Shown piece by piece: positions 8,629 through 64,000 of a stretch of DNA of 64,000 bases (the first letter of the stretch is position 1; each line of letters begins with the position of its first letter). Under the pieces are notes generated by a model. The model saw only the letters and a program-made list of their open reading frames with translations, searched no databases and was not told the DNA's origin. This DNA is from Phycisphaerales bacterium. GTDB taxonomy: Bacteria > Planctomycetota > Phycisphaerae > Phycisphaerales > UBA5793. Both the position numbers and the translations under genes were made by a program. Location: assembly GCA_020852515.1 (NCBI GenBank), contig JADZAS010000015.1, positions 372,001 through 436,000 of the forward strand, given 5' to 3'.

Positions 8629-9441
8629 ATGACGAAGCGATCCTTGGCCGTAGCGTTGGCGGCGATTCTGACCATTCCAGCCGTGGCGTCCGCCGACCAC
8701 ATCCCCGGCCACCACAACTACGACCCGACCTGGCCGGTGCCGATTCCGGGCCGCGAGTTCTTCAATGGCGGCGTCCTCTTCGTCGATGCGATCGGACCGC
8801 TCGGCGGCTACGAGATCACCAACGCCACTTTCGACATCACCTACGTCTCGGACGGCGCGACGCCCGCGAGCGACATCGTCATCGTCGCCGCAATCCAGAC
8901 GCAAAGCGGTTACCTTGAAACCGAGGTGACGGGCGCCGACCTTGGTTTCGGCTCGGGGCCAGGCACCTTCAAGGGAACGTTCGCGACCCACGCGCTCGAT
9001 GGCGTTGTGGAGCGCGGTTTCCTTGGACCCTACAGCCTGATGCATCTGACGATCGATTCGCTCCAGGGCGGCATTCAGGGCGAGGGCTACTTTGTGCAGT
9101 CCGCCATCGTGCTGGATGTAACCGGCACCATCCCGAGCATTCAGGTCACCGGCGACTGCCCGGGATCAATGACGTTTACCGTGTCAGGCGCGCAGCCGAA
9201 CCAGCGCATCGCGCTGCTCGCGGCTCGCGGCGAGGGGTCTCTCGAGATTCCTCGGGGCGCGTGCGCCGGGCAGACGCTTGGGCTGGACTCGTCGGCGCGC
9301 ATCGCGGCAGTCACTTCAGCGGACGGCGGCGGCACAGCCATCTTTACTGCCAACGTTGCCTCCGGCGCCTGCGGCCGATACTGGGTCCAGGCCATTGATT
9401 CGGTCAGTTGCCTGGTCACCGAGGTCCGGCCGATTCAGTAA
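8629..9441 (+). CDS. secreted protein with cysteine-type C-terminal module
   Basis: A 270-residue exported protein with signal peptide MTKRSLAVALAAILTIPAVASA. A TGGAGG-like ribosome site lies upstream of the ATG. The N-terminal part (about 24-165) is a beta-rich domain with histidines at its start (DHIPGHHNYDP) and no recognised family. The last 100 residues run from TGDCPGSMTFTVSGAQPNQ to the end with four cysteines. This matches the C-terminal part of the protease at the other end of the window (TGVCPGLVTVTWENATPNS), with similar spacing of glycines and cysteines. The shared tail suggests a common surface-binding or sorting role. Function otherwise unknown. Confidence 0.7.
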   Translation: MTKRSLAVALAAILTIPAVASADHIPGHHNYDPTWPVPIPGREFFNGGVLFVDAIGPLGGYEITNATFDITYVSDGATPASDIVIVAAIQTQSGYLETEVTGADLGFGSGPGTFKGTFATHALDGVVERGFLGPYSLMHLTIDSLQGGIQGEGYFVQSAIVLDVTGTIPSIQVTGDCPGSMTFTVSGAQPNQRIALLAARGEGSLEIPRGACAGQTLGLDSSARIAAVTSADGGGTAIFTANVASGACGRYWVQAIDSVSCLVTEVRPIQ

Positions 9442-36753: not shown

Positions 36754-37115
36754 GGGCGCCCGGTCTCCTTCCGTCCCACACCCAGTCGCCTGCCGCTGTT
36801 GTTTCCGTCAGGACAATACCCGCGCGTGGGGGAGCGGCACGGCGGGGCTGTCTCCTCCACTGCACGGAACCGTCGGCTGCCGCCGAGGGCTATGGGCCGG
36901 CAATCAGTCGCGCCTCCACACACTCCGGACGCAAATGGGAACAAAAACCCCGCGCAAAACGTTGCTCTGTGGACCATTGGGCGCATTCTTCCGGTACCAT
37001 ACCCGGCCGCGCCCCCGCCATCGCGTTATCAGACCGCCTCTCACAACCTTCGCCACGTCAATACCTTCCGGACATCTCCGTCCACCTCAGCCACATACCT
37101 GGAGCATCGAAGAAC
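36754..37115. other. divergent intergenic region
   Basis: 362 bases between the ribbon operon and the divergent secreted-protein gene. It must carry promoters for both directions, but I see no clear -35/-10 pair, repeat or supported small gene. Confidence 0.4.
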
Positions 37116-44763: not shown

Positions 44764-46275
44764 CTAACGGCGAGATTCGGCGGGGAGGTCATCAATGCTC
44801 TTGTCACCAAGAGTATCCACCGCGGTCCACTCCAGCGCGCGGCCCAGGGCGCTCTGGGCCTGCTCCCAGCCGATGAACTCCGGGTCGGCCGCCAGGCCGC
44901 GCAGAAGTTCGATCTCTCCCGGCCTCAGCGGCGTGAGCCGGCCGATGGACAGCGCCGCCTCCTGCCGCACCATGAGCGATTCATCGCCCAGCAGGCCCAC
45001 AAGGATCCGCACCTGCAGCGGCTCATCCGCCCGGTAGCGGCCGATCTCGCTGGCCACTCGATACCGCACCTGCTCCACCGGCACCCGCGACGCAATCTCC
45101 AGGCTCGCAAGCACCTCGGGGTCGTAGGAGTCGATCGCGAGCAGCGCTTCCAGTGCGGCCACGCGCCGGTAGTCCATGACGCGCGGCTCGGTGAGCAGCA
45201 GTGTCAGGCGCGGCACGGCCGGGCGCGCCACCGGGCCAAGCAGCTGCAGCGCCCGCAGGGCCGCATCCATTCGACGGTCATCCGCATCGATCGCCGCGAT
45301 GATCTCATCCACCGCCGGAGTGGCCGCAAGCCCAAGTCGCCCGAGTGCGCGAATGGCGTTGGCCCCCACCATGCTGGACGGGTCGTCGATGAGTTCGGTC
45401 AGCTTCGGCGCCGCCACCTCGGCCATGCTGCCGAACTTGCCCAGCACATCGCACACTTCCGATCGAACCTCAGCCCGCTCGTCGGCCAGCGCCTCGACCA
45501 GCGGCTCGATCGCATCGGGATGCAGCGGCCGAAGGAAGTCAAAAACCCGCGCCGCACGCGTCCGCACCGCCACGCGGCTGTCGCTCAAGCACCCAGCCAC
45601 GCGCCGGGCGCAGCGGCCGGCATCGACGATGTGGTCCGCCCCGGCGATGAGCGAAAGCGCATTGAGCGACTCGATGCGAATCGTCGGATCCGCATCCTCC
45701 GTTGCCAGCAGCAGTGCCCGCTCGGCGACGTCATCGCGCAGACGCATGTCGGAGATGAGCTGCACCGCCCGCAGCCGGGTGGGGCGACCGGCTTCGATGA
45801 TCGCCGCGCAGCGGTGCGCAAAGAACCGGCCGTACTCGGAGATCTCGCGGTTGTGGCGGCGGAACCACTCCGGGTTCGATGCGTTCACCCGGGCGTCCGC
45901 CTCGTCGAGCACCCATGGGTTGTCGGTCCAGGGCATGACGATCATCAATGCGGTGGTGGGGATCAGCGCCGTCCAGCCCTGCTCCTGCACCCGCGGCAGG
46001 ACCGCCAGCGTCGAGCCGCACACGATCAGCAAAGCGCCCAGCAGGGCCTGCATGCGGTAGCGGCGCGTGCGCAGGAGGTTGCGCTGCCTCCGGGCGTCGT
46101 GGCCGCACTCGGGACACACAAACCCCCGGCTGCCGGTCATGTCGTACCAGCAACTCGGGCACCGCGGCCGCCCGCGCGAGCGGTCGGCAAAGCCGGCCCG
46201 GTAGAGGACGAGCACGCCGACGGCGCCGAGCAGCGCTGCGACGAGAAAGAGGATGACACAGGCGAGCACGGACAA
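44764..46275 (-). CDS. membrane protein with zinc ribbon and HEAT repeats
   Basis: A 503-residue protein. An N-terminal membrane helix (LACVILFLVAALLGAVGVLVLYRAGFA) is followed by a zinc ribbon (RCPSCWYDMTGSRGFVCPECG), a second helix pair at about 75-112, then HEAT-like repeats from about 165 to 480 (for example DPTIRIESLNALSLIAG, RAEVRSEVCDVLGKFGS, SSMVGANAIRALGRLGL, ESLMVRQEAALSIGRL). HEAT repeats build a protein-binding scaffold. It stands just upstream of mutM on the same strand. Partner unknown. Confidence 0.8.
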   Translation of the reverse strand: MSVLACVILFLVAALLGAVGVLVLYRAGFADRSRGRPRCPSCWYDMTGSRGFVCPECGHDARRQRNLLRTRRYRMQALLGALLIVCGSTLAVLPRVQEQGWTALIPTTALMIVMPWTDNPWVLDEADARVNASNPEWFRRHNREISEYGRFFAHRCAAIIEAGRPTRLRAVQLISDMRLRDDVAERALLLATEDADPTIRIESLNALSLIAGADHIVDAGRCARRVAGCLSDSRVAVRTRAARVFDFLRPLHPDAIEPLVEALADERAEVRSEVCDVLGKFGSMAEVAAPKLTELIDDPSSMVGANAIRALGRLGLAATPAVDEIIAAIDADDRRMDAALRALQLLGPVARPAVPRLTLLLTEPRVMDYRRVAALEALLAIDSYDPEVLASLEIASRVPVEQVRYRVASEIGRYRADEPLQVRILVGLLGDESLMVRQEAALSIGRLTPLRPGEIELLRGLAADPEFIGWEQAQSALGRALEWTAVDTLGDKSIDDLPAESRR

Positions 46276-46645
46276 TCGTAGGAGCCGGCCGCGAAAGCCG
46301 GTCCGGGGCAGCGTCCAGGTAGCGAGCTGGTCAGATCGACGACATCACCTTGTCCGCCAGCCCGGCGGGGATGTACTGAGCGGCGAGCCCATCGCAGTTC
46401 ACCGGTTGCGTGCCTCAAACCACGAGAAATCCACCCTGATCAAGTGTCGTTATGGCGCTTTGTTCTCGACGGTGTGGCGTTCCGCAGGTACGTTGGAGCC
46501 GCGTTACTGCATGCTGTCGCCCATGGCGCGGGGTGGCCGCGGGTCGCAGGGGCTACTGGCGCCGTTCTCAGTCGGTGTTGCGGTGGATGGAGTCGTCATC
46601 TGTCGATGGCGAATTTGTCGCCGCCCTCTTCGAAGGAGGCGTCCT
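46276..46645. other. divergent intergenic region
   Basis: 370 bases between the HEAT-repeat gene and the divergent secreted-protein cluster. It carries a ribosome site (GAAGGAGG) at its right end; no clear promoter pair, repeat or small gene could be identified. Confidence 0.4.
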
Positions 46646-49285
46646 ATGAGACGTCCTTTCAAGCGCGTTCACAGTGGATTCTCGACCATCTCGCTGCTCG
46701 GAGCCAGTACAATCTTGCTGGCGGCTGCGGGCGAAACCGTTTGGCACGTCAACTCGGCGGCCACTTGGGAGGGAAGGTGGGCCGCACCGACAGTCGGGGT
46801 GGAAGCCGCTGCTGCCGCCGTGTCGGCGGGCAGCGCGGAAGCGGAGAGCGAGATGCTGACCACGCCGATCTTCAAGCCGTTCGTGCCTGTGCGCATTGCG
46901 CCGCCCAGCGGCTATTCCTCCGGCGAAGTGATGGCGCTCAACGAAGCAGGGCAGGCGGTCGGCTGGATGTGGAACGACTCCGCCGAAGTCGAGTACCCGT
47001 TCTTCTTCGATCCTGCGGGTGGCGTCACGATGCTCGACCTGCCCACGGGCGCCGATGCCGGCGGAGCGCTGAGCCTCAACAGCGACGACCCGCCGATGAT
47101 CGTCGGCTATGCGCACGACACCACGCTCGACGAGGATTTGGGCGCGGTCTGGTCATCCGATGGCGACTTCGACGGCTACATCTTTGATGTCGAGACCCCG
47201 ATCCACGGCAACGGAGTGAACGCCTCCGAGCGGATCGCCTGCAACTACAAGGATTCAGGCGACAATCATTCGCTCGTCTGGGAAGACGAGTACAACTACT
47301 GGAATCCGGCTTCGACCACATCGAGCGCCGCCTGCGGAGTCAACTCGAGCGGCAAGGTCGTCGGCTGGCACCTCGTGAGCAGCGTGTCGCACGCGTACAC
47401 CTGGGTGCCCGATACGCTGACGGACATTCATCCGAACCCGTTTGACGCCAGCGGCGCGCTTGCCATCAACGATGGCGGTTACATCGGGGGTTGGGTGGAT
47501 GACGACGGCGAATTTCTGGCGGCGCTTTGGACGCCGCTGACACCGGGCGTGTACACCGTCGAGCCGTTCGCCGCGGGGGCGGATGCCGCAGTGATGGACC
47601 TCAACGACGAGGGCGAGATGGTCATCATGCGCACCGACGGTACGGCCGGTGTGGCCATCTGGAACAAGCGCGGCAGCATCAACAGCGCTGACCTGCTTGA
47701 CAGCATCACCCTGATGCGCGGTGCGACGGATGTGATCGCCTCCGGCCGGGCCATCAACAACGCCGGCTGGATCGGCGGCAGTTACAAAGCGGGCGGCACG
47801 GGCGACCCGCTGCCGTGCCTGGTGATTCCGTATGACGTAGACAACAACGGCGAGCCGGACTACCGCGAGATTCTCGACGATCCGGAGAATCTGGACAGCA
47901 ATGACAACTGGCTTCTTGACTGGGCTGAGAACATGCGCGTCGGCTTGCACTCGCCCAATTCATCAGCGGACCCCGAAGGGGCTATCGATCCGGCTCAACT
48001 CGTGCGCCTGGGCGTGAACGTCGGACCGGCAGGCATTGAAGACCGGCCGGAATCAATCGCCGGCGAGTACTGGGTCGAAGACATTCTGCATCCGGAAGTG
48101 GATGACTGCGCTTCATGCACTGGATTCCATACTGCCGTGACCAGTTGGGGCACGGGCGAGGGCCGCGCCAACGAGAATCTGACCTCGGAGATCCTGATTC
48201 GGGTGCACTCGATGATGGGGCCGGAGGAGTTCGGCGACAGCGAAGCCCTTCCCGACCCCGAAGCGCCGCAGGAGAAGCAGGCGGCGCTCGATGATCTGCG
48301 GCTCTTCGCGTACCGATTCGCGCGCTGCATTGACTACCTGCAATGGGGCAACGAATCTTTCGGCGGGGCGCGGGGCTATCGGTTCCGCGAGGATGAGTTC
48401 GATTGTGATTCATTCGATGAAGGTACGTTGTTTCAGTATCTGCCGGCCAACTGCAAGGCGCTCGCGGTGAGTGCGGTGCAGGACTGGCAGGCGGAGATGC
48501 TGTGGGCGGCGCTGGAAGGATCGGCCCTGGCCGGTCGGCCGCTGCGGATGACCAGTTGCGGGATCAGCGATGGCAACGTGTACAACGGATACGAGGCCCA
48601 GGACCCGAATGACGCAGGTCGTTACCTGACGACCAAGGTGGCTGACTGGTGCAACTCCAACCAGGCATACTTCTCGATGCATGTGCATTACAATGAGGCG
48701 CAGCCGGCGCTGGACGCCATTCAGCGCCTGGTGGATGAGACGGGCGCGCCTTGGGACGTGCCGAACTGGCGCATCTCGACGGAAGTCGGGGCTATGGCGG
48801 ACTTTCAGAATGATGACTGGTGGCTTGAGGAAGTCGATCCGTTCGGCGTCACCAACATCCAGATCCACCAGATGTTCTTCTGGGGCACTACGAATCCACC
48901 GACGGGAGAGAGTTGGGAAGATTTCATCAACCGCTGGGAGTCTGACGCAGACCGTTGGAATCCCGTCGGATTGGAGGCCGGCTTCCGCATCGACGATCTC
49001 TTCGGCGAGTTCAATGATGCGGACTTCGTCGGACTGTGCTGGTCCACGCTCCAGTGGGACAAGGGATCAGTCGGACAGCCCAGCCGCTTCCTCGTCGAGG
49101 GACTTCGCGCCACCCAGGTGCGCAACGACGAGGATCTGTTCGAGTCAGGCAACTACACGAACCGCTACACTCCGATCATGGAGGCGTATGAGACGACGGG
49201 CGCGACCTACAAGATCGCCAACTTCGCGCCCCATGCATTCGGGTGCGATGAGAGTGAAGTCTGCCCCGGCTGCGGCGGGCAGTGA
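46646..49285 (+). CDS. secreted HAF-repeat protein with clan GH-A-like domain
   Basis: An 879-residue exported protein; GAAGGAGG precedes the ATG. The signal segment (STISLLGASTILLAAAGETVW) is followed by HAF-like repeats at about 85-390: VMALNEAGQAVGWMWNDS, ACGVNSSGKVVGWHL, ALAINDGGYIGGWVDD, GRAINNAGWIGGSYKAG. A short calcium-binding-like DVDNNGEPDYREI comes next. The second half (about 435-860) looks like a TIM barrel: CIDYLQWGNESFGG places E570 after N as in the acid/base of clan GH-A, and NWRISTEVGAMADFQNDDWW places E713 where the nucleophile is expected. Polysaccharide hydrolysis is therefore possible; no family was assigned. Ends in a CPGCGGQ tail without the module shared by its neighbours. 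Confidence 0.72.
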   Translation: MRRPFKRVHSGFSTISLLGASTILLAAAGETVWHVNSAATWEGRWAAPTVGVEAAAAAVSAGSAEAESEMLTTPIFKPFVPVRIAPPSGYSSGEVMALNEAGQAVGWMWNDSAEVEYPFFFDPAGGVTMLDLPTGADAGGALSLNSDDPPMIVGYAHDTTLDEDLGAVWSSDGDFDGYIFDVETPIHGNGVNASERIACNYKDSGDNHSLVWEDEYNYWNPASTTSSAACGVNSSGKVVGWHLVSSVSHAYTWVPDTLTDIHPNPFDASGALAINDGGYIGGWVDDDGEFLAALWTPLTPGVYTVEPFAAGADAAVMDLNDEGEMVIMRTDGTAGVAIWNKRGSINSADLLDSITLMRGATDVIASGRAINNAGWIGGSYKAGGTGDPLPCLVIPYDVDNNGEPDYREILDDPENLDSNDNWLLDWAENMRVGLHSPNSSADPEGAIDPAQLVRLGVNVGPAGIEDRPESIAGEYWVEDILHPEVDDCASCTGFHTAVTSWGTGEGRANENLTSEILIRVHSMMGPEEFGDSEALPDPEAPQEKQAALDDLRLFAYRFARCIDYLQWGNESFGGARGYRFREDEFDCDSFDEGTLFQYLPANCKALAVSAVQDWQAEMLWAALEGSALAGRPLRMTSCGISDGNVYNGYEAQDPNDAGRYLTTKVADWCNSNQAYFSMHVHYNEAQPALDAIQRLVDETGAPWDVPNWRISTEVGAMADFQNDDWWLEEVDPFGVTNIQIHQMFFWGTTNPPTGESWEDFINRWESDADRWNPVGLEAGFRIDDLFGEFNDADFVGLCWSTLQWDKGSVGQPSRFLVEGLRATQVRNDEDLFESGNYTNRYTPIMEAYETTGATYKIANFAPHAFGCDESEVCPGCGGQ

Positions 49286-49358
49286 GTGACTCTCTCTGTC
49301 TGGAGCGGCGAGAGCCGCTCCAGACCATTGCGTTCACTTTTTTGAAAGGCCCGCCACC

Positions 49359-50738
49359 ATGCGACAAATGCGGTTTGGAACCGTTATCCAGTTATCAATT
49401 CTCATGATCTGCTCTTCCGTGTTGTCTCAGGAATACCGGTATGCGACGATCCAATTGCGTTCACAGAACGAATCACTGGCATCTGATGTCGCCGACGGGC
49501 TAAATCTGTTCGGGGATACCGTTGGGCAAGCGCCCTTGGAGAGCTTCTGGCTTCCTCGACCGGCTCTCTGGCCGCGAGATGGTGGCGTCATCGACCTCGG
49601 AACGCTCGGCGGCGACCTGGGCAGCGCCAGAGACATTAATGAAGTCGGCGAGGTCGTGGGCTCGTCCGGCTTCGAACCGGGTGGAAGCATCTTCGTCGGC
49701 CATGCGTTCTTGTGGCGCAATGGAATCATGATCGAGCTTGGGACGTTGGGGGGTGAGTCCAGCGGGGCCGGCGCGATCAACAATCAGGGCCAGATCGTCG
49801 GAGACTCGGAGTACGAGTTCGGGAACTATGCAGATCGTGGGTTTCTTTGGGAGAACGGTGTAATGACCGCGCTCCCGGCAGCGCCGCCTGAGCTTTACTC
49901 GAGGGGCGCAAATGATATCAACGAGAAGAGCGAGGCGATTGGTTATGGCGGGGGGTTTGACCTTCAGGTAAATGCCCTGCTGTGGCGCAATGGCGAGATG
50001 ATCGACCTGGGTTCACTCTCGGGCCAAGGAAGTCGCGCCGAAGCGATCAATGACCTCGGCCAGATTGTGGGTCGGTCAGAAGCGGCCAATGGCAACGGGC
50101 ATGCAGTGGTGTGGATCGACGGTCGCATCATTGACATTCACGATGGACGATACGGTGCATACAGCTGGGGCCAGGATATCAACAATGCCGGCCACGTCAT
50201 TGGCGCGATCGGCGACTTCGCTACCACGCGCGAAATGTTCATCCGCGAGTCTGGCCATCCCATGCGCCTGCTCAAAGACCTGATGCCGCCGCGCACCCGT
50301 GAAGACTGGCGGCTCGATCGTGGCCATATCAATGACGCCGGACAGATGTCCGTCGCGGCGAACATAAGGGGAACCCTTGATTACTTCGCGCTCCTGCTCA
50401 CGCCCGTCGATCCCTCGCTGGACCTCGCCGCCCCCGCGCCCGGCCGCGCCGGCGAGGCGAACGCCCTCAGCGTGACCAACGCGACGCCAAGCGCACGGGT
50501 CGTATTTCTCTACAGCAAACACGGCGGGGGCACGCGCATCCCCGGCTGCGACCTCCAGCAGAACGCGCTGCAACTCGATCAGCCAACCATCATCGGCAGC
50601 GCCATCGCCGACGGCAACGGCGTGGCCGCCATCACCCGCACCGTCCCCCTCGTCGCCCGCGGGCAGACCATCCTCTTCCAGGCCGTCGTCCAGAACGAGT
50701 GCGCGATCAGCCAGTTGGTGGTGCATGAGTTTGAGTAG
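49359..50738 (+). CDS. secreted HAF-repeat protein with shared C-terminal module
   Basis: A 459-residue exported protein with a signal peptide ending about residue 23. Residues 45-355 are HAF repeats, each with an ALWxxGxxxDLGTLGG strand and an INxxGQIVG turn: LGTLGGDLGSARDINEVGEVVG, LGTLGGESSGAGAINNQGQIVG, LGSLSGQGSRAEAINDLGQIVG. The C-terminal 100 residues (LAAPAPGRAGEANALSVTN onward) are the module also found in the four paralogues that follow. HAF proteins are extracellular in predicted location, with unknown ligand. Second gene of the plus-strand cluster. Confidence 0.82.
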   Translation: MRQMRFGTVIQLSILMICSSVLSQEYRYATIQLRSQNESLASDVADGLNLFGDTVGQAPLESFWLPRPALWPRDGGVIDLGTLGGDLGSARDINEVGEVVGSSGFEPGGSIFVGHAFLWRNGIMIELGTLGGESSGAGAINNQGQIVGDSEYEFGNYADRGFLWENGVMTALPAAPPELYSRGANDINEKSEAIGYGGGFDLQVNALLWRNGEMIDLGSLSGQGSRAEAINDLGQIVGRSEAANGNGHAVVWIDGRIIDIHDGRYGAYSWGQDINNAGHVIGAIGDFATTREMFIRESGHPMRLLKDLMPPRTREDWRLDRGHINDAGQMSVAANIRGTLDYFALLLTPVDPSLDLAAPAPGRAGEANALSVTNATPSARVVFLYSKHGGGTRIPGCDLQQNALQLDQPTIIGSAIADGNGVAAITRTVPLVARGQTILFQAVVQNECAISQLVVHEFE

Positions 50739-50789
50739 AGGCCAGGCATGAAGAGAGGCATTAGGCACTAGGCACTGGGCATTAGGGGA

Positions 50790-50821
50790 AAGGCATCAAG
50801 GCATCAAGGCATCAAGGCATC
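50790..50821. repeat. 8-base tandem repeat
   Basis: Four perfect copies of AAGGCATC, preceded by a looser run of GGCACT/GGCATT units from about 50757. It lies in the 263-base gap between the HAF gene and the first BNR paralogue. Such short arrays vary by slippage. Confidence 0.85.
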
Positions 50822-51001
50822 GAGACAGGAGCCGGTGGGCCCCATGCCGCCCGCCGCGGCTGGCGCTGTTCAGTTGGAACAACCCGGCCCCGACAGCGGT
50901 TGAGAGAGAGCGAACCTGTGCGGCAAACCCGCAGGGATGCAGGTTTTTGGCGCCTGTGGCCGCGCCGCCGCCCGGGTCAATCGCGAAAGGGGAGTCGGGT
51001 C

Positions 51002-52585
51002 ATGCAGCATCTCAGATTGGTGGGGCGGGTGGGCGCGGGGTGCAGCGCCCTCGTCATCGCGGCCGCGTTCACGGTCTCGGCGGCGGCTCAGCAAGGCGTG
51101 CAGGTCAACCTCGACGCCAACGGGATGAACATCCCCGGCGATGCGGCCAACGAGCCGAGTTTCGCCATCGACCCGACCAACCCCCTGCACCTCGTCGCCG
51201 GCTGGCGGCAGTTTCCCACCATCAACTCCGACGCCCGCTACGCCGGGGTCGCGGTGAGCACCGATGGCGGGCTGTCGTGGTTCAATGAAGGCACGCTGCC
51301 TCCGCCGCCCGATGCGCCCAACGCACAGCAGTCTGACCCCGTGCTCGCGGTCGATTGGAACGGCGTGTTCTTTTACAACAGCCTCATCTTCCGAGGCAAC
51401 CACCTCGGCGTGGCAACGTACCGCAGCGACACGGGCGGCTTCTCGTGGGAGGAGCCAGTGTTCATGCGCAACAGTTCCGCCGACAAGAACTGGTACGAGA
51501 TCGACTACCTCTCCGGCCACCACTACGGCATCTGGCAGTTCCCTGGCGAGTTTGCCCGCAGCACCGACGGCGGGCAGACCTGGAGCCGCTGGGACGTGGG
51601 CGCGAGCATCTTCGCGCACATCGGCATCGGGCCCGACGCCGAGGTCTACATCGGCTGGTGGGAGAACGCGGGCGTGAAGGTGCGGCGCTCCGACAACGCG
51701 GGCGATCCAAACGCGACGCCGAGTTTCACGCCTGAGGTCACGGTGCCGCTGGGCGGCATGGTCTGGCAGCCGCCGGTCAACCCGGACGGCGGGGCGAGCC
51801 AGGTGTGGATCGCCACCGATCATCGTGACGGGCCGCAGCGCGGCTGGGTGTACGTGCTCAGTTCATCCGAGACTTCCAACGACGTGGCCGACGTCATGTT
51901 CTCGCGCAGCACCGATCGCGGCCAGACGTGGAGCGCGCCGATCCGCGTCAACGATGATGCGCCGGGCCAGGATTACCAGTGGATGGCGGCGATGTCGCTC
52001 GCGCCCGGCGGCCGGCTCGACGCGGCGTGGTTTGACACGCGCGACGACCCCGGGCACCGTCTCTCGCGCCTCTATTACGCGCACTCGTATGACGGCGGCG
52101 CGACGTGGTCGCCCAGCCGCGCCGTGGGCGACCAGTTCGACTCGCGCGTCGGTTGGCCGCAGCAGCGCAAGATGGGCGACTATTTCCACGCGCGCTCGGA
52201 CAACGGTTCGATGAGTTTCGTGCACGCGGCGACGTACAACGGCGAGCAGGACATTTACTACCGCCGCCTGCACCCGATGGTGCTCGAATCGACGGACCTC
52301 TTCGCCGGCCAGCCGGCGCAGTTCAGCGTGAGCGAGTGCCGCCCGGGCGAGCGCGTGTGGATCGTCTACAGCCTGGCCGGCGCGGGCTACACAGACGTGC
52401 CGCAACTGGATGTGCCGGTGAATCTCGCCCAGCCGCGCCTGGCCGTCGGGCCGCGCGCGGCGGACGCCAACGGCGATGTGTCTTGGATGGTCACCATGCC
52501 GCCGCAGTCGCGCGGCCAGCACATCTACTTCCAGGCCATCCAGCGGCAGAACGCCAGCAACGTGCTCGAAGCCGACGTGCAGTGA
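51002..52585 (+). CDS. secreted BNR/sialidase-fold protein, paralogue 1
   Basis: A 527-residue exported protein; signal peptide ends ...VSAAAQ. The mature start QGVQVNLDANGMNIPGDAANEPSFAIDP is shared by all four paralogues. Propeller blades show BNR-like Asp-box motifs: STDGGLSWFN, RSDTGGFSWEE, STDGGQTWSRW, STDRGQTWSAP, SYDGGATWSPS. The consensus SxDxGxTW is that of sialidase-type propellers, but the catalytic arginine triad of true sialidases is not recognisable, so binding or another hydrolase role is equally likely. The C-terminal 95 residues (LFAGQPAQFSVSECRPGERV to NASNVLEADVQ) are the shared module. The ATG at 51002 was chosen because the signal peptide starts there. Confidence 0.8.
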   Translation: MQHLRLVGRVGAGCSALVIAAAFTVSAAAQQGVQVNLDANGMNIPGDAANEPSFAIDPTNPLHLVAGWRQFPTINSDARYAGVAVSTDGGLSWFNEGTLPPPPDAPNAQQSDPVLAVDWNGVFFYNSLIFRGNHLGVATYRSDTGGFSWEEPVFMRNSSADKNWYEIDYLSGHHYGIWQFPGEFARSTDGGQTWSRWDVGASIFAHIGIGPDAEVYIGWWENAGVKVRRSDNAGDPNATPSFTPEVTVPLGGMVWQPPVNPDGGASQVWIATDHRDGPQRGWVYVLSSSETSNDVADVMFSRSTDRGQTWSAPIRVNDDAPGQDYQWMAAMSLAPGGRLDAAWFDTRDDPGHRLSRLYYAHSYDGGATWSPSRAVGDQFDSRVGWPQQRKMGDYFHARSDNGSMSFVHAATYNGEQDIYYRRLHPMVLESTDLFAGQPAQFSVSECRPGERVWIVYSLAGAGYTDVPQLDVPVNLAQPRLAVGPRAADANGDVSWMVTMPPQSRGQHIYFQAIQRQNASNVLEADVQ

Positions 52586-52631
52586 TCCAAGGTGAAGTGA
52601 ATCGGGCAACTAGAGAGGACGAGGGGGAGAC

Positions 52632-54284
52632 ATGCGCACATCACCACGAACAGCGCTGCGCCGGGCCGGTGCGGCGCTGCTGTTGACGCTGCCAGCGCTG
52701 GGTTCATCGGCGCTCGCGCAGCGCGGCGTGCAGATCAACACCGACGCCCTGGGCAACGACATCATCGGCGATGCGGCCAACGAGCCGACCTTTGCCGTCA
52801 GCCCTGTCGATCCTGATCGGCTCGTTGTCGGCTGGCGCCAGTTTCCGACCATCAACTCCGACTCGCGCTACGCCGGGTACGCGTGGTCGAGCGACGGCGG
52901 GCTGACGTGGACCAACGGCGGCACGCTTGCCGGCCCGCCGGGCTACCAGAACCCCGAACAGTCCGACCCGCTTGTCAAGGTCAACGCGCAGGGCGTTTTC
53001 TATTACTGGAGCGAGGTCTTTCGGCCCAACTACGCACAGTGGATGTACCAGTCCGCCGACGGCGGGCAGACGTGGTCCGTGCCGGACCCCATCGAAGATC
53101 CGACCAGCGGCGACAAGCCGTGGCTGGCCATCGACAACACGGGCGGGATGGGAGACGGGCACCTGTACGGCGGATGGAATCACTTCACCCTCGGGGGCTA
53201 CTGCTATGTCGAGTCCACCGACGGCGGCCACACGTGGACGCCAAGCAAGCGCATCGCCGACGCCGGCGGCACGCAGTGGATGCTGCACATGGTCGTAGGC
53301 CCCGAGGGCGAGGTGTACGCCGGCTGGAAGAACTACAACCAGAACGCGATCCTCATCACCAAGTCCACCAACGCCAAGGACCCCAACGTCACCACGACCT
53401 TCGACGCCTTCGGCGCCGGCGGGCGCGATGGCCTTGATATCCGCATCGACGCCGCGAACGACCCGGGCAACGTGCCCGTGAACCCGACCGGCTTTCACCA
53501 GTTGTTTCTCGGCGTCGATTCATCCGGCGGGCCTCGCCGCGGCTGGGTCTACGCCCTCTGGCCCGACGACCGGCGCGATGGCGCGGATCTCTCGTTTGCG
53601 CGCAGCAGCGACGGCGGCTTCACGTGGGAGACGGGCATTCGCGTCAACGACGACGGGCCGGGCGCGCTGCAGTGGATGCCGGCGATGAGCGTCGCGCCCA
53701 ATGGCCGCATCGACGTTTTCTGGTTCGACACGCGTAACAGCAGCGGACATCCCGTGCCGTGGTCGCAGCTCTTCTACACCTTCTCGACCGACGGCGGGTC
53801 AAATTGGGCGCCGAATCGGCGACTCTCGGACGCGTTCGATACCACGCTCGGCTGGCCGCAGCAGCAGAAGATCGGCGACTACATGGAGAGCGTGTCAGAC
53901 GATCGCGGCGCGGGGGTCGTCTATCCGGCGACGTTCAACGGCGGGCAGGATCTCTGGTTCATGCGCCTCGAACCGTTCCAGGTGAATGTGAGCGCGCTCG
54001 TGGCCGGTCAGCAGGGCAGCGCGAGCGTGGCCGGGGCGCGGGCCAATGAGAGCGTCTGGCTCGCCGCGACTCTGAGCGGCCTGGGCAGCACGTACGTTGC
54101 GCAGCTCAACGTAACGCTCAGTCTCGACCGCCCGTTCCAGGTCGGCTCGATGAAGACGACCGACGCGAGCGGCGCGGCGCAGTGGAGCCTCCCCGTGCCG
54201 CGCCTGGCCGCCGGCCGCACCCTCTGGTTCCAGGCCGTCCAGCGCGAGAGCACGAGCAACGTCGCCCAGGCGGTGGTGGAGTAA
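52632..54284 (+). CDS. secreted BNR/sialidase-fold protein, paralogue 2
   Basis: A 550-residue exported protein, the most divergent of the four. The mature start RGVQINTDALGNDIIGDAANEP, the Asp-box motifs (SSDGGLTWTNG, SADGGQTWSVP, STDGGHTWTPS, SSDGGFTWETG, STDGGSNWAPN) and the C-terminal module (LVAGQQGSASVAGARANES to STSNVAQAVVE) mark it as a paralogue. It lacks the FADKNWYTID-type block as such and has SGDKPWLAIDNTGG instead. 46 bases separate it from paralogue 1. Confidence 0.82.
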   Translation: MRTSPRTALRRAGAALLLTLPALGSSALAQRGVQINTDALGNDIIGDAANEPTFAVSPVDPDRLVVGWRQFPTINSDSRYAGYAWSSDGGLTWTNGGTLAGPPGYQNPEQSDPLVKVNAQGVFYYWSEVFRPNYAQWMYQSADGGQTWSVPDPIEDPTSGDKPWLAIDNTGGMGDGHLYGGWNHFTLGGYCYVESTDGGHTWTPSKRIADAGGTQWMLHMVVGPEGEVYAGWKNYNQNAILITKSTNAKDPNVTTTFDAFGAGGRDGLDIRIDAANDPGNVPVNPTGFHQLFLGVDSSGGPRRGWVYALWPDDRRDGADLSFARSSDGGFTWETGIRVNDDGPGALQWMPAMSVAPNGRIDVFWFDTRNSSGHPVPWSQLFYTFSTDGGSNWAPNRRLSDAFDTTLGWPQQQKIGDYMESVSDDRGAGVVYPATFNGGQDLWFMRLEPFQVNVSALVAGQQGSASVAGARANESVWLAATLSGLGSTYVAQLNVTLSLDRPFQVGSMKTTDASGAAQWSLPVPRLAAGRTLWFQAVQRESTSNVAQAVVE

Positions 54285-54309
54285 ACCTCAACAGACGAGG
54301 AGTTTGAAG

Positions 54310-55911
54310 ATGATCCGGATGGAACAGAATCGCGCTGCAGCCGCCACTTTGCTTGTCGCTCTCACGGGCGCCCTTTGCGCCTCAGGCGCGATCGGGCAGC
54401 AGGGCGTGCAGATCAACATAGACGGGCAAGGCTTCAACATCCCCAACGACGCGGCGAACGAGCCGAGCTTTTCCATCGATCCGCTTCACCCCCAGCACAT
54501 GGTTGTAGGATGGCGCGAATTCCCCACCGTCAATTCGAATTCGCGGTATGCCGGCTATGCCGTGACGACCGATGGCGGCCTCACGTGGTACAACGGAGGA
54601 ACGCTTCCCCCACCCGACGGCTCACCCAACGGCGAGCAGTCCGACCCGGTCATCGCCGTCGATAATGACGGCAGGTTCTTCTACAACAGCCTGCTCTTCA
54701 CGGGTGGGCAACTCGGCATCCTGATCTACAACAGCGATACGGGCGGCTATTCATGGAACGACCCGCTCTACCTGTTCACGGGGTTCGCCGACAAGAACTG
54801 GTACACCATCGACCGCAGCGGCGCAAGCCGACATCACTATTGCAGTTGGGGGAACACCACGATCTACGTCTCGCGCAGCATCACCGAGGGAGCGACCTGG
54901 CAGACGCCGCAGCCGCTCGGCGCAGGCATCCGCTCCTATATGGAAACGGGATTGAACGGCGAGTTGTACCTGGCGTGGTGGGACTACAACGCGCAGCGCG
55001 TCGCATTTCGAACTTCCCGCAACGCAAGCGATCCAAACCAGACTCCGACGTGGAGTCCGGAAGTGCGGCTGCCGTTCGGGCGCATGCCTTCGGGTCTGCG
55101 CATCAACCCGGGCGGTGGGTCAGGCCAGGTCTGGATCATGGTTGACACGAGCGACGGCCCGAGTCGCGGCAACGTGTACGCCTGTTCATCATCGGTCCCC
55201 GCCAATGATGTCTGCGACGTCATGTTCGCTCGCAGCACCGACGGGGGGCAGACCTTCAGCACTCCCATCCGCATCAATGACGATCCGCCGGGCCAGGACT
55301 ATCAGTGGATGGCGAGTATCTCGATCGCGCCCTCCGGCCGGCTCGACGCGACGTGGTTCGACACGCGCGATGACCCCAATCACTTCATCTCCCGCCTCTA
55401 CTACTCGTACTCGTGGGATGGCGGCCTCACCTGGTCTCCCAACCGCGCCGTCGGCGATCCGTTCGATCCTTCGCTCGGCTACCCGCAGCAGAACAAGATC
55501 GGCGACTACTTCCAGTGCCAGTCCGACAATGGCTCGGTCAGCGTGATTCACCCCGCCACGTTCAATGGCGAGCAGGACATCTACTACCAGCGCCTGCACC
55601 CGATGGTGCTCGAATCATCGCCGCTCCGCGCCGGCGAGCAGGCGCAGTTCGCCGTGAGCGAAGCGCGGCCCGGCGAGCAGGCCTGGGTCGTCTACAGCCT
55701 CACCGGCCGCGGCTACACGAACATCGGCATGCTCGATGTCCCCGTCAACCTCGCCCGGCCGCAACTCGGCGCCGGCCCGCGCCTGGCCGATCAAAGCGGC
55801 AACGTGATGTGGACGGTCACGATGCCGCCCCAGTCACAGGGGCGAACCGTGTGGTTCCAGGCCATCCAGCGCGAGAACGCGAGCAACGTCATCGAGGCGG
55901 TGGTGGAGTAG
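54310..55911 (+). CDS. secreted BNR/sialidase-fold protein, paralogue 3
   Basis: A 533-residue exported protein. The ATG at 54310 follows GAGGAG at 7 bases; a TTG at 54304 is in frame. Signal peptide, then QGVQINIDGQGFNIPNDAANEP. Asp-box motifs: TTDGGLTWYNG, NSDTGGYSWND, STDGGQTFSTP, SWDGGLTWSPN. From KIGDYFQCQS to the C-terminus (138 residues) it differs from paralogue 4 at only three positions, while the upstream halves are clearly diverged, which points to gene conversion or a recent partial duplication. 25 bases separate it from paralogue 2. Confidence 0.82.
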   Translation: MIRMEQNRAAAATLLVALTGALCASGAIGQQGVQINIDGQGFNIPNDAANEPSFSIDPLHPQHMVVGWREFPTVNSNSRYAGYAVTTDGGLTWYNGGTLPPPDGSPNGEQSDPVIAVDNDGRFFYNSLLFTGGQLGILIYNSDTGGYSWNDPLYLFTGFADKNWYTIDRSGASRHHYCSWGNTTIYVSRSITEGATWQTPQPLGAGIRSYMETGLNGELYLAWWDYNAQRVAFRTSRNASDPNQTPTWSPEVRLPFGRMPSGLRINPGGGSGQVWIMVDTSDGPSRGNVYACSSSVPANDVCDVMFARSTDGGQTFSTPIRINDDPPGQDYQWMASISIAPSGRLDATWFDTRDDPNHFISRLYYSYSWDGGLTWSPNRAVGDPFDPSLGYPQQNKIGDYFQCQSDNGSVSVIHPATFNGEQDIYYQRLHPMVLESSPLRAGEQAQFAVSEARPGEQAWVVYSLTGRGYTNIGMLDVPVNLARPQLGAGPRLADQSGNVMWTVTMPPQSQGRTVWFQAIQRENASNVIEAVVE

Positions 55912-56039
55912 CTCGCGGAGTGACGGCAGATCAAGGTGCTTTTCTGCTTGCACCAGGGCGAGAAACGCGTTACCTTGACCATGCCGTCGCGTCCGCCGCG
56001 CGATGAAGCACCGTCCGCACCAGTGAAAGTGAGGTAGCC

Positions 56040-57617
56040 GTGCGCCAGACCACCAATTTGTGCAGAATGACTCTCATGATGCTCGTTGCCGCTCTCGCCG
56101 CGACGCCGGGGCTGGCCCAGCGCGGCGTGCAGATCAACACCGATGCGCTCGGGATGAACATCCCCGGCGATGCGGCGAACGAGCCAAGCTTTGCGATTGA
56201 CCCGACGGATCCTCAGCACATGGTGGTGGGGTGGCGGGAGTTTGCAACCAACACCTCCGACTTTCGGCTGGCGGGGTACGCGGTTACGCTCGACGGAGGG
56301 CTGACGTGGTACAACGGCGGCACGCTCGAGCCGCCGGAAGGATCGGGAAACGCGAATCAGACCGATCCCGTGGTCAAGTTCGATCGCAACGGCATGGTCT
56401 ATTACAACAGCATGATCTACCGCTCGACGCGCGACGGGCAGACGGTGTATCGCAGCACGGATGGCGGTTTTACGTGGGAGACGCCCAATTACATCCGTGA
56501 GAATTGCTTCTGCGACAAGAACTGGTACGCCATCGATGATCTGAACGGATTCCACTACGGCATCTGGCAGATCCCCGGCGAGTTTGCCCGCTCAATCGAC
56601 GGCGGCCGCACGTGGAATTCGTGGAGTGTCGGTGCATCCGTATTCGCGTTCGTGAATCCAGGTCCCGACAGTGAGGTCTACATCGGGTGGTGGGGAAGCG
56701 GAGTAGTGCTTCGTCGATCAGATAACGCTCGCGACCCGAACGCGACACCGACGTTTACCGCCGCCATCAGTATTCCCCTGGGTTCCGGTCTGTGGTATTC
56801 GCCGCTCAACCCGGATGGGGCGGCCAGCCAGATCAACGTCGTGGTGGATCATCGTGACGGCCCGCAGCGCGGCTGGGTATACATGCTGAGTTCTGCAGTT
56901 CGAACGGACGACGTTTGTGATGTGATGTTTGCTCGAAGCACTGATGGCGGTCGGACATTCAGCACACCGATGCGCGTGAACGACGACCCGCGTGGGCCGG
57001 ATTACCAATGGATGGCTGCCATGTCCATGGCGCCCAGCGGTCGCCTCGACGCAGTCTGGCTCGATACGCGCGACGATCCGAACCACTTCATCTCACGTCT
57101 CTACTACTCGTATTCATGGGACGGCGGATTGACGTGGTCGACCAACCGTCCAGTCGGCGATCCCTGGAATCCGTCGCTGGGCTGGCCCGGCGGTCAACGC
57201 AAGATCGGCGACTACTTCCAGTGCCAGTCCGACAACGGTTCGGTGAGCGTGATTCACCCCGCCACGTTCAACGGCGAGCAGGACATCTACTACCAGCGCC
57301 TGCATCCGATGGTGCTCGAGACTTCGCCGCTCCGCGCCGGTGAGCAGGCGCAGTTCGCCGTGAGCGAAGCGCGGCCCGGCGAGCAGGTCTGGGTCGTCTA
57401 CAGCCTCACCGGCCGCGGCTACACGAACATCGGCATGCTCGATGTCCCCGTCAACCTCGCCCGGCCGCAACTCGGCGTCGGCCCGCGCCTGGCCGATCAA
57501 AGCGGCAACGTCATGTGGACGGTGACGATGCCGCCACAGTCGCAGGGGCGAACCGTGTGGTTCCAGGCCATCCAGCGCGAGAATGCGAGCAACGTCATTG
57601 AAGCGGTCGTCGAGTAA
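56040..57617 (+). CDS. secreted BNR/sialidase-fold protein, paralogue 4
   Basis: A 525-residue exported protein starting at GTG 56040 with GAGGTAG just before. The signal segment MTLMMLVAALAATPGLAQ leads to RGVQINTDALGMNIPGDAANEP. Asp-box motifs: TLDGGLTWYNG, STDGGFTWETP, SIDGGRTWNSW, STDGGRTFSTP, SWDGGLTWSTN. Its first half resembles paralogue 1 (for example FHYGIWQIPGEFARS against HHYGIWQFPGEFARS), while its last 138 residues are nearly identical to paralogue 3, so it looks mosaic. It ends the cluster, 33 bases before a dispersed repeat. Confidence 0.82.
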   Translation: MRQTTNLCRMTLMMLVAALAATPGLAQRGVQINTDALGMNIPGDAANEPSFAIDPTDPQHMVVGWREFATNTSDFRLAGYAVTLDGGLTWYNGGTLEPPEGSGNANQTDPVVKFDRNGMVYYNSMIYRSTRDGQTVYRSTDGGFTWETPNYIRENCFCDKNWYAIDDLNGFHYGIWQIPGEFARSIDGGRTWNSWSVGASVFAFVNPGPDSEVYIGWWGSGVVLRRSDNARDPNATPTFTAAISIPLGSGLWYSPLNPDGAASQINVVVDHRDGPQRGWVYMLSSAVRTDDVCDVMFARSTDGGRTFSTPMRVNDDPRGPDYQWMAAMSMAPSGRLDAVWLDTRDDPNHFISRLYYSYSWDGGLTWSTNRPVGDPWNPSLGWPGGQRKIGDYFQCQSDNGSVSVIHPATFNGEQDIYYQRLHPMVLETSPLRAGEQAQFAVSEARPGEQVWVVYSLTGRGYTNIGMLDVPVNLARPQLGVGPRLADQSGNVMWTVTMPPQSQGRTVWFQAIQRENASNVIEAVVE

Positions 57618-60623: not shown

Positions 60624-61358
60624 ATGAACACCAAAACTATCAGTGCGCTCGCAGCGATCGCCGCCGCGGCTTCAGCATTCAGTGCCGCCCGCGCCGATCT
60701 CATTCACGACGGCGGATTCGAGCTGAGCACCGCGCCCGGCCTGCGCCTGCCCACCACCATGAACACCTGGTCAGGCGACGTCGCCGAAGTCACCACCGCC
60801 GCCGACGGGATCATCCCGTTCGAAGGCGCGCAGATGATTCACTTCATGTATTCCACGCCGCGCGGCCCCTACGGCGACATCATCGGCAGCGAACTCTGGC
60901 AGATCATCGATGTCAGCGAATATCGCCAACTCATCGACGCCGGCACCGCCGCCGCCACCGCCACCGGCTGGTTCAACCGCGTCGGGGGCGAGGATCCGCT
61001 CATCGACACCCAGTTCTCCATCGTTCTCTCGGCCTACGCCGGCGAGCCGATCGACTTCCCCTCGATGTGGAAGCAGAGCGAACTCGCGCTGACCGAGGGC
61101 TTCGCCTACACCGACGGCGATATACGCACCTGGCAGATGGCCACCACTTCGATGATGATTCCCGTCGAGACCGATTTCCTCGTCTACCGCATCACCGCGA
61201 CCGAGAACGTTTTCGACGACGCGAGCGGCATCGAGTTCCACGGCCACTACGGCGACGCGTTCGAACTGAGCATCACCGAAGTGCCCGCCCCGGCGAGCCT
61301 GGTCATGATGCTCGGCGGCGCGCTGACCATCGGCGCCCGTCGCCGGCGCAGCGCGTGA
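60624..61358 (+). CDS. secreted protein with PEP-CTERM-type sorting tail
   Basis: A 244-residue exported protein; TGAGGAGA lies before the ATG. Signal peptide TISALAAIAAAASAFSAARA, then a beta-rich body (LIHDGGFELSTAPGLR and onward). The last 25 residues, VPAPASLVMMLGGALTIGARRRRSA, have the three parts of a PEP-CTERM-like signal: the VPAPAS motif, a hydrophobic helix and a basic end. Such tails are recognised by exosortase, which is not encoded in the window. The N-terminal GGFEL segment resembles carbohydrate-binding-like domains. Ligand unknown. Confidence 0.82.
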   Translation: MNTKTISALAAIAAAASAFSAARADLIHDGGFELSTAPGLRLPTTMNTWSGDVAEVTTAADGIIPFEGAQMIHFMYSTPRGPYGDIIGSELWQIIDVSEYRQLIDAGTAAATATGWFNRVGGEDPLIDTQFSIVLSAYAGEPIDFPSMWKQSELALTEGFAYTDGDIRTWQMATTSMMIPVETDFLVYRITATENVFDDASGIEFHGHYGDAFELSITEVPAPASLVMMLGGALTIGARRRRSA

Positions 61359-61450: not shown

Positions 61451-64000
61451 TTACGGATGCTGCACCACGTTGGTGAGGTTGCAGCCCGGCAGGTCGTGCA
61501 TCTGCATGAAGCCGAGGCACGCACCCGACTGCGACTGCCCGCTGCGGCTGCCGCTGCCGTTGCTTCCCGACGGGAAGGTGGACACCAGGCGAATGCTCTG
61601 GCTGCCCAGGCCCAGCACCGTGCCCTGGCACGGTCCGAAGGGAATAACGAACGAGCCGGTGTTTCGCGCGTAGATGAGCGCGACGGTCGAATTCGGCGTC
61701 GCGTTCTCCCACGTCACGGTCACGAGGCCGGGGCACACGCCCGTCGCCGTCAGCGTGAACGGCAGCGAGGTGGCTCGATAGCCCAGGTCCATGCGCGTCG
61801 CGGTGGTCGGCGAGGTTGAGTTGCCAAAGCGCGTCGAGTTGTATGCGCGCGACGATTCGCTGCTTCCGCTCGCTCGCGAGACGGCCGTATCGACGCCCGA
61901 ACTGTTGACGGAAACGATCTCGACGAGCAGGTTTCCGTTGTTGGGGTTGTAGGTAAACGTGTTGCGGCCGAAATCGAAGAACATGCTGTGCTCGATCGAG
62001 CCGTTGCTCATATAGGTGCGCTTGGTGGCGCTGCCGGAATACAGCGTCGTCATGGCGCCGTTGCGGTTGTTGGCCAGGACCGCGTCGAGGCCGCCCTGGT
62101 TCGTGTCAACACCCGGGATCTTGTTCGTGTATCCCATGCGGATGGTGATGCTCGAAGTCGCGGTGTCACCGATCAGGCTCGTGTTGGGCGCGAAGCCGAT
62201 GGACTCCATGGTGACCGGGCCGCTGAAGAGGCCGCTGTCGAAGACCTGGTGCATCGTGCACGTGTCGCCGTCGCCGAAGGGAATGAAGTTGTACGCCGCG
62301 TGCGCGCCGGTGGGCAGGATGCCGCCGGGGTTGATGCGGTAGTGAACCGAGCCGTTGAACACGCGGTTGGCGAACGTGGTGCCGAACGGATAGGTCTTGC
62401 CCACGCCGCGGTCTTCCCAGCGGATGTTGGCGTCCTGGTAGGCGCCCAGCGGGCCGTTGCTGTACGACAGCGAACTGCCGTCGGTGCGGGTGATGTAGAT
62501 GCCCACGGTCTGATTCTGCGCGAGGGTGAGGCTGCCGACGTTGATGCCCGTGGGTTCGCCGACGGGCGAAGTCGTGATGTTCGAGTGCGAGCCCAGCAGC
62601 GTCCAGGCGCCGGCGTTGGTTTCCTTGCCGACGTAGGAAGTCTTGTTGGTGACGTAGTAGACCTCGATGCTGGCCGGTCCGCCGCTGCGGTCGTTGAAGT
62701 CGAAGGCGGTGATGGTGATGCCCAGCGAATTGAGGCAGGTGATGTCGAACATGGCGCCGTTCTGGCCGTTGCCGCCCTGCCACGTCGAGCCGAGGCTGCG
62801 GCGCGCTGTGCCCGTCAGCGCCTTGGAGGCGTTGATGCGCCCGTAGCCGAACGTATTCGAATTGCCGACGTTGTCGCAGGTGCCCTTCATGAGGTTCTCG
62901 ATGTCATCGGGCGTGAAGGCGGGGTTCTGCGACCAGATCAGCGCCGCCAGTCCGGCCGCGCAAGGAGAGGCCATGCTCGTGCCGCTCATCGTCTCGTAGG
63001 CGTCGTCGCCGGTGCGAGACAGCGAGAGGATGTTGCTGCCCGGGGCGAAGAGATCGACGTACAGGCCGTAGTTCGAGAAGCTCGACTTGCCGTCGGTCTC
63101 GTTCGTCGAGCCGACGACCATGACGTCATCCGCGTCGCGATTCGAGCCGTTCATGGCCTGGTTGCTGTTACCCGCGGCCCAGAAGACGAGGCCGCCGTTG
63201 CCCTTGATGACGGTCGCCGCCGCGCGCACTGACGCGTTGTCAACGCCGCTGTAGGAGACGTTGATGGCCCGGTCGCCCTGTTCGGACGCGGTGACGGCCG
63301 CGTGGTTGAGCACGTCGATGCTCGAGTTGCCGTTGGAGAGGTTGCTCACCTTGAGGATGCGGTGGGCATAGTTCCAGCCCACGCCGGCGACGCCGCGCGC
63401 GTTGTTGCCGTGGGCGGCGGCGATGCCCGTCGTGTGCGTGCCGTGGCCGTGGATGTCGGTGATGTTGCCGCCGTTGCCTTCCCACAGTTCATCCACGGCG
63501 TTGTAGCCTTCCTTGCGCAGCGCCGGCAAGTCGAGGTGCGAAGTCCGCAGGCCCGTGTCGCAGATGGCCACGGTGATGCCGTTGAAGCCCGTGTTGTAGT
63601 TCCACGCGCTGGTCGCCTGGATCTTGGTCATGTTCCACTGCTCGCCGAAGCGCGTGTCGTTGGGCGTGACCAGGGGATAGCACGTCCAGTTCGGCTCGAC
63701 GAACTCGAACATCCCCGTGTTCATCAGGCGCTGCGCGACGGCGTTCTCCGTCTCGCCCTGGGGCACTTCGATGACGTACCAGTCCACCGCCGGGCGATAC
63801 TTGACGATCGTGTAGTCCGCCTCGAGCAGCCGGCGGGCGGCGTCGGACTGCATGACCTGCCCCTGCACGGGCCGGGCGATCATCTGCCCAGAGAACTCGA
63901 GTTCGCCGGGCTGTTCCACGAAGACGCGCGGCTGGTTGCCGCTTTCATTGCCTGTGCCCGCCATCGCCATCGTCGGCAGCAGCGCCGCAGTCAGCGCGAA
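61451..64000 (-). CDS. subtilisin-like serine protease, partial (5' end beyond window)
   Basis: A secreted S8 protease. The frame stays open to base 64000 and encodes FALTAALLPTMAMA before GTGNESG, which is the end of a signal peptide; the ATG at 63970 is therefore probably internal and the true start lies outside. After a propeptide, the triad is present: AICDTGLRTSH (Asp), DIHGHGTHTTGIAAAHG (His), oxyanion region VFWAAGNSNQ and MSGTSMASPCAAGLAAL (Ser). The roughly 450 residues after the catalytic domain are beta-rich and end with a cysteine-containing module (TGVCPGLVTVTWENATPNS) like that of the 8.6 kb protein. The substrate is unknown. Confidence 0.93.
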   Translation of the reverse strand, partial: FALTAALLPTMAMAGTGNESGNQPRVFVEQPGELEFSGQMIARPVQGQVMQSDAARRLLEADYTIVKYRPAVDWYVIEVPQGETENAVAQRLMNTGMFEFVEPNWTCYPLVTPNDTRFGEQWNMTKIQATSAWNYNTGFNGITVAICDTGLRTSHLDLPALRKEGYNAVDELWEGNGGNITDIHGHGTHTTGIAAAHGNNARGVAGVGWNYAHRILKVSNLSNGNSSIDVLNHAAVTASEQGDRAINVSYSGVDNASVRAAATVIKGNGGLVFWAAGNSNQAMNGSNRDADDVMVVGSTNETDGKSSFSNYGLYVDLFAPGSNILSLSRTGDDAYETMSGTSMASPCAAGLAALIWSQNPAFTPDDIENLMKGTCDNVGNSNTFGYGRINASKALTGTARRSLGSTWQGGNGQNGAMFDITCLNSLGITITAFDFNDRSGGPASIEVYYVTNKTSYVGKETNAGAWTLLGSHSNITTSPVGEPTGINVGSLTLAQNQTVGIYITRTDGSSLSYSNGPLGAYQDANIRWEDRGVGKTYPFGTTFANRVFNGSVHYRINPGGILPTGAHAAYNFIPFGDGDTCTMHQVFDSGLFSGPVTMESIGFAPNTSLIGDTATSSITIRMGYTNKIPGVDTNQGGLDAVLANNRNGAMTTLYSGSATKRTYMSNGSIEHSMFFDFGRNTFTYNPNNGNLLVEIVSVNSSGVDTAVSRASGSSESSRAYNSTRFGNSTSPTTATRMDLGYRATSLPFTLTATGVCPGLVTVTWENATPNSTVALIYARNTGSFVIPFGPCQGTVLGLGSQSIRLVSTFPSGSNGSGSRSGQSQSGACLGFMQMHDLPGCNLTNVVQHP

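Follow-up and report, generated by a model that had tools for sequence, protein, structure and literature searches.

The locus

Six consecutive genes on the plus strand, at positions 46646–57617 of a 64,000-nucleotide stretch of DNA from a Phycisphaerales bacterium (the window; part of contig C15 of a 4.72 Mb genome, labelled G000), encode a HAF-repeat protein with a glycosidase-like domain (g1), a second HAF-repeat protein (g2), and four Asp-box propeller proteins (p1–p4). The question raised by this locus is whether the six genes act together, as assumed by the original prediction, which saw here one surface system binding or degrading one polymer, or whether a 105-residue C-terminal domain (CTD) carried by most of them has a wider role. 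We infer that this Phycisphaerales family probably uses the CTD as its general tag for surface sorting or anchoring, with a role like that played elsewhere by the C-terminal domain of the type IX secretion system (T9SS), by dockerin, or by PEP-CTERM; the six-gene cluster itself is a composite of two units, a conserved propeller array and an inserted g1–g2 cassette.

All six predicted open reading frames are present, each with a hydrophobic signal-like N-terminal segment, as follows:

46646–49285, plus strand: g1, exported; N-terminal HAF region (46646–47929) and glycoside hydrolase (GH) clan A-like domain (47930–49282); no CTD
49359–50738, plus strand: g2, exported HAF-repeat protein with CTD
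50409–50735, plus strand: CTD of g2, 113.7 bits against the CTD profile, tail 0; subtype with two Cys, common to HAF proteins
51002–52585, plus strand: p1, exported Asp-box propeller with CTD
52268–52582, plus strand: CTD of p1, 118.5 bits, tail 0
52632–54284, plus strand: p2, exported Asp-box propeller with CTD
53967–54281, plus strand: CTD of p2, 110.9 bits, tail 0
54310–55911, plus strand: p3, exported Asp-box propeller with CTD
55594–55908, plus strand: CTD of p3, 118.0 bits, tail 0; protein 97% identical to the CTD of p4
56040 (or 56067)–57617, plus strand: p4, exported Asp-box propeller with CTD
57300–57614, plus strand: CTD of p4, 121.0 bits, tail 0; modelled as an immunoglobulin (Ig)-like sandwich

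The open frame of g1 spans 46253–49285, ATG at 46646, preceded by AAGGAGG, being the likely start. The intergenic gaps are 73 bases (g1–g2), 46 (p1–p2), 25 (p2–p3, counted from ATG 54310), and 128 (p3–p4), the last three being the values originally given. BNR/Asp-box models match p1–p4 (p1 and p2 pass a Pfam cut-off), and mutual identity of 43–67% over their length bears out the description of these four as paralogues.

Position, passengers, and fold of the C-terminal domain

Only the last ~130 residues are common to g2 and p1–p4 (29–35% identity, E from 1e-5 to 1e-10), and g1 lacks this stretch. A search of the same genome with p4 yields 66 places, nearly all of them matching the last 100 residues of p4 alone. 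The CTD profile was built from the proteins fetched at matching loci of this genome, where at least 141 copies are found. Since at least 141 places carry it, the CTD does not tie the six genes together; the common C-terminal module of the original prediction stands for g2 and p1–p4, but not for g1, and it occurs genome-wide.

In a search unrestricted by position, 80 of 81 matches in this genome end 0–5 residues short of the stop codon or the end of the frame; the single non-terminal match is the inner member of a tandem pair and is followed by a terminal copy. The CTD is likewise terminal in all 25 stopped frames of related genomes and in 9/9 from distant families of the phylum. The passengers are diverse: S8 subtilases, M14 carboxypeptidases, FG-GAP and other propellers, HAF proteins, beta-helices, a GDSL esterase, sorbosone dehydrogenase, CHRD, and others; most of them, by a crude heuristic, have a signal-like N terminus. 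Thus placed strictly at the C terminus of many unrelated exported proteins, the CTD behaves as sorting and anchoring domains in general do.

No significant Pfam or NCBIfam match is seen for 74 CTDs tested, and no description of the domain was found in the literature on planctomycete C-terminal sorting domains and HAF repeats; the CTD is undescribed. Its conserved positions are G26, P38, G52, G81, P90, and Q101 of the aligned segment, and it varies in loops and in Cys-bearing subtypes. The AlphaFold model of the p4 domain is a predicted eight- to nine-strand sandwich (mean predicted local distance difference test score, pLDDT, 89.1; ~91–97 from residue 21) that resembles neocarzinostatin-type and Ig domains, with VIA Z of 9–10, common to many Ig folds; Foldseek gives no match to this model below E 0.001.

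Distribution of the domain across genomes

Within the order the CTD is either abundant or absent. This genome has at least 141 copies, and each of five others in the family has 100 to at least 150, the upper figure being the scoring limit. Scoring of all candidates gave 0 in 15 genomes drawn from five further families of the same order, although a divergent CTD subtype there may escape the profile. The same dichotomy (at least 100 or 0) is softer phylum-wide: in a sample of the phylum, where at most 15 candidates per genome were scored and counts are therefore lower bounds, the CTD is found in 50 of 294 genomes, some families (such as the one labelled f62) being rich in it and others having few matches. 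It was from this kind of distribution, abundant or absent, that PEP-CTERM was first recognised (PMC1569441).

Exchange of tails on one propeller family

The propeller family of p1–p4 is itself widespread beyond the CTD-rich family, with other tails. Among 70 propeller tails from outside that family, 35 match the T9SS sorting domain, ten thrombospondin type 3 repeats, eight dockerin, one IPTL-CTERM, and one PEP-CTERM; the remaining tails are Pro/Thr-rich or have no assignment. The CTD is absent from all 21 genomes with these other tails, and three genomes of the family in the same propeller search have at least 146 CTDs each. Hence the CTD fills the slot held elsewhere by known sorting or anchoring modules.

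Candidate partner machinery

The similarity of position to T9SS tails raises the alternative of a T9SS sorting domain that has diverged far and is handled by a T9SS. The size is also similar, and T9SS tails fold as a comparable sandwich. Against this, TIGR04183 and TIGR04189 have no match in this genome; PF14349 (SprA_N, from the T9SS translocon SprA), used because TIGR04189 matched no control, is found in 0/5 genomes of the family and in both positive controls (Flavobacteriia); and comparison of the CTD with 31 T9SS tails by hhalign gives a profile–profile probability of 0.2%. We regard such a relationship as very improbable.

Exosortase as a partner was rejected as not specific, since all 21 genomes of the order have it, CTD-bearing and CTD-free alike (two exosortases in this genome). 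Peptidase C25 (of the PorU kind) occurs twice in every family genome (6/6) and in just 2/15 other genomes of the order. As a partner it was rejected on the phylum-wide counts, 15 of 21 CTD-positive vs. 11 of 21 CTD-negative genomes; it is also missing from most f62 genomes with at least 15 scored CTDs. Two gingipain-like C25 peptidases of this genome, at C15:233773–234948 and C13:186988–188310, have no CTD and lie mostly among housekeeping genes.

Proposed role of the domain

The CTD is called here a sorting or anchoring domain mainly because of the tail swap and the abundance pattern. In the proposed route, the passenger would be exported by Sec via its N-terminal signal (the signal being seen in the sequence); the CTD is predicted to fold as an Ig-like sandwich in the periplasm; an outer-membrane translocon, a sortase, or a surface receptor common to all carriers would then recognise it; and the passenger would be displayed or retained outside the cell.

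Several findings weigh against this proposal. Some genomes of the phylum sample have just 1–5 CTD matches (with at most 15 candidates scored), a softer pattern than all-or-none; partner machinery was not found among SprA, exosortase, and C25; and the Ig-like fold is generic and uninformative on function. The last two points also speak for a simpler explanation, that the CTD is a structural or ligand-binding Ig-like appendage, serving stability or carbohydrate or matrix binding and spread by domain shuffling without dedicated machinery, which would likewise fit the resemblance to neocarzinostatin-type and many Ig domains, the loop variation, and the Cys-bearing subtypes. Generic Ig modules, however, are also found internally and in tandem, whereas the CTD is nearly absolute in its C-terminal position, and in its slot on this propeller it is replaced elsewhere by sorting or anchoring tails; a plain appendage is therefore unlikely in our view.

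A sorting or anchoring tag, the reading we prefer, leaves room for a more specific proposal, that proteins with the CTD are the substrates of a Planctomycetota secretion or surface-attachment system not yet described, functionally equivalent to T9SS, with an unrelated signal and machinery, serving well over 100 proteins per genome, and swapped for other systems between related lineages. We offer it tentatively, as one possibility; the evidence would fit a secretion system not yet described just as well as it would a domain that attaches to a component of the surface and is not processed.

Little is known of how the large exoproteomes of Planctomycetota are placed on the cell surface. One CTD model marks more than 100 probable surface proteins per genome and would make such proteomes annotatable at once, and a domain abundant or absent within one order turns the search for the machinery into a direct problem of comparative genomics.

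Two units in the six-gene cluster

The cluster is a composite of the conserved Asp-box propeller array p1–p4 and the inserted g1–g2 cassette. The array, beside HEAT/mutM or ffh, recurs without HAF genes in three other genomes of the genus (G001, G003, and G004). The order in G001, from the same genus, is mutM–HEAT–p1–p2–p3–p, with ~180 bases between p1 and HEAT and no HAF gene; in G004, p1–p2–p3 are followed by ffh, the PEP-CTERM-like gene, and the S8 protease, at 90–98% identity; and in G003 the propeller array lies ~2 kb from HEAT, again without HAF genes. Translated search of these three array loci for g1 and g2 relatives found the shared C-terminal module only. Among named genomes, the nearest that share the array are uncultured assemblies: Phycisphaerales bacterium UBA5793, Planctomycetota KLAP200, and PLA1, the last labelled Vicinamibacteraceae, yet grouping with the UBA5793/KLAP200 lineage.

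Conversely, almost every g1 relative in the CTD-rich family is directly followed by a g2 relative. In this genome such cassettes lie on C4 and remnants of them on C13 and C15; repeated instances occur in G001, G003, G004, and G005. No propellers stand beside them at the cassette loci examined. As arrays occur without the cassette, and cassettes without propellers, the cassette is an independent unit, inserted here between HEAT and p1.

These observations weigh against the single polymer system. Adjacency on the same strand, the clan A-like domain of g1, and the sialidase-like propellers speak for it; against it are the three arrays without g1 and g2, the other cassettes without propellers, and the genome-wide CTD. 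Conserved synteny in relatives, the absence of which the original prediction named in advance as an argument against itself, does not hold in G001, G003, and G004. We consider a common system very improbable, and this reading of the six genes should be dropped.

Probable recombination and decay

The cassette extends as follows:

46421–50824, plus strand: g1–g2 cassette, extent common to other loci, with a conserved 5' leader (46421–47037), a diverged middle, and a conserved 3' end (50388–50824)

Within the leader, DNA at 46600–46800 is 92–94% identical to that of cassettes from other contigs and genomes, the bodies of which are only ~30–80% identical. The closest cassette by body, on C13 of G003 (51–82%), matches the leader at just 62%; conservation returns at the 3' end (64–83%), where the CTD is encoded. 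These conflicting nearest relatives of leader and body suggest cassette recombination, as in variable surface proteins. A similar pattern is seen in the array: p3 and p4 are 94–99% identical over most of their last ~400 bases and 41–75% upstream, where p4 is mostly nearer to p1 than to p3. The mosaicism of both p3/p4 and the cassette is best explained by recombination or gene conversion, the C-terminal part of p3/p4 having the marks of a recent gene conversion.

Fragments of g1 relatives are found in this genome at C13:489743–490261, C4:9783–9959, and C15:125759–126025, two of them with an in-frame stop; they lie beside intact g2 relatives and read as decayed cassettes.

A perfect 12-bp hairpin is found at 49298–49325, between g1 and g2, and a strong hairpin is present in 11/11 cassette g1–g2 gaps examined, with differing stem sequences; comparable GC hairpins are found downstream of other genes in the window (after 9441, 40106, and 61358). 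A regulatory RNA in this gap was considered and rejected, as the covariation permutation result was inflated, the arms having been picked for complementarity, and similar hairpins occur elsewhere; it is probably an ordinary 3'-end hairpin.

HAF repeats, the glycosidase-like domain, and propellers

HAF repeats were correctly recognised in both cassette genes: against TIGR02913 (curated cut-off 22.65), g2 scores 121.6 bits and g1 a marginal 24.9. The second part of g1 is as follows:

47930–49282, plus strand: GH clan A-like TIM barrel of g1, with domain residues E142 (in WGNE, after strand 4) and E285 (at the end of strand 7)

The glycosidase-like domain suspected earlier is borne out by its AlphaFold model, a predicted TIM barrel (pLDDT ~70–95 over residues 24–288; the C-terminal third is poorly modelled), to which the 50 best aligned solved structures are clan A-type glycoside hydrolases, the top match being GH39 (VIA Z 17.8, root-mean-square deviation 3.4, 264 residues). 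The predicted barrel, with the acid/base Glu after strand 4 and the nucleophile Glu after strand 7, has the features that define clan A, and both Glu at the catalytic positions (E142 in WGNE and E285) are invariant in 12/12 relatives. The domain has no Pfam model and no sequence match among PDB structures, and its relatives, in the 41 genomes searched, are found only in the CTD-rich planctomycete family. It is apparently an unclassified glycoside hydrolase family; judged by modelled fold and residues, g1 is likely an active retaining glycosidase and probably hydrolyses a beta-glycoside. The propellers, we infer, probably act on extracellular glycans or glycoproteins, by binding or cleaving them.

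Other copies in the window and genome

Two CTDs of the window lie outside the six-gene cluster:

39789–40103, plus strand: CTD of the exported protein 36969–40106, 109.6 bits, tail 0
9127–9438, plus strand: CTD (divergent CPG subtype) of the exported protein 8629–9441, 67.4 bits, tail 0

The S8 protease at 61451–63970 has a weak CTD-like end (61454–61768, minus strand, 18 bits), close to the CPG subtype of 9127–9438 and of loci L190 and L216, and probably representing a divergent CTD subfamily. The exported protein at 60624–61358 is closed by a PEP-CTERM-like tail (VPAPASLVMMLGG...RRRRS). CTD-bearing genes commonly stand in tandem arrays here; others with four to five CTD-bearing exported paralogues are L169 (C15:280900–291700) and L189 (C15:173900–182000).

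Comparison with known systems

The g1 domain is similar to clan A families (GH39, GH164, GH1, GH42, GH5, GH53) in its predicted TIM barrel and Glu after strands 4 and 7, and differs from them in having neither a Pfam model nor a sequence match to a solved structure. Propellers p1–p4 share Asp boxes and weak local similarity with GH33 and other sialidase-fold proteins; their best match to solved sialidases (E ~1e-5), however, spans just part of the propeller.

For the CTD, PEP-CTERM/exosortase (Haft 2006, PMC1569441) is comparable in its strictly C-terminal position on dozens of diverse exported proteins and in its sporadic, abundant-or-absent distribution. The CTD, unlike PEP-CTERM, is a folded domain of ~105 residues that has neither transmembrane helix nor basic tail; its predicted beta sandwich runs up to the last residues, and it has no PEP-CTERM match in Pfam or NCBIfam; and exosortase is also present in all CTD-free genomes of the order. 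Dockerin type I (PF00404) forms the C-terminal module of this propeller in other Planctomycetota and in Methylococcaceae, and consists of calcium-loop repeats rather than a beta sandwich. T9SS type A (PF18962, TIGR04183) has no sequence relation to the CTD and other conserved positions, and no SprA is found in the five genomes of the CTD-rich family searched for it; yet it is likewise a C-terminal domain of ~80–100 residues on many unrelated Sec-exported passengers, abundant or absent, and occupies, in Bacteroidota, the same slot behind the same propeller. The tail swap on this one propeller family thus provides a built-in comparison of the CTD with T9SS, dockerin, and PEP-CTERM.

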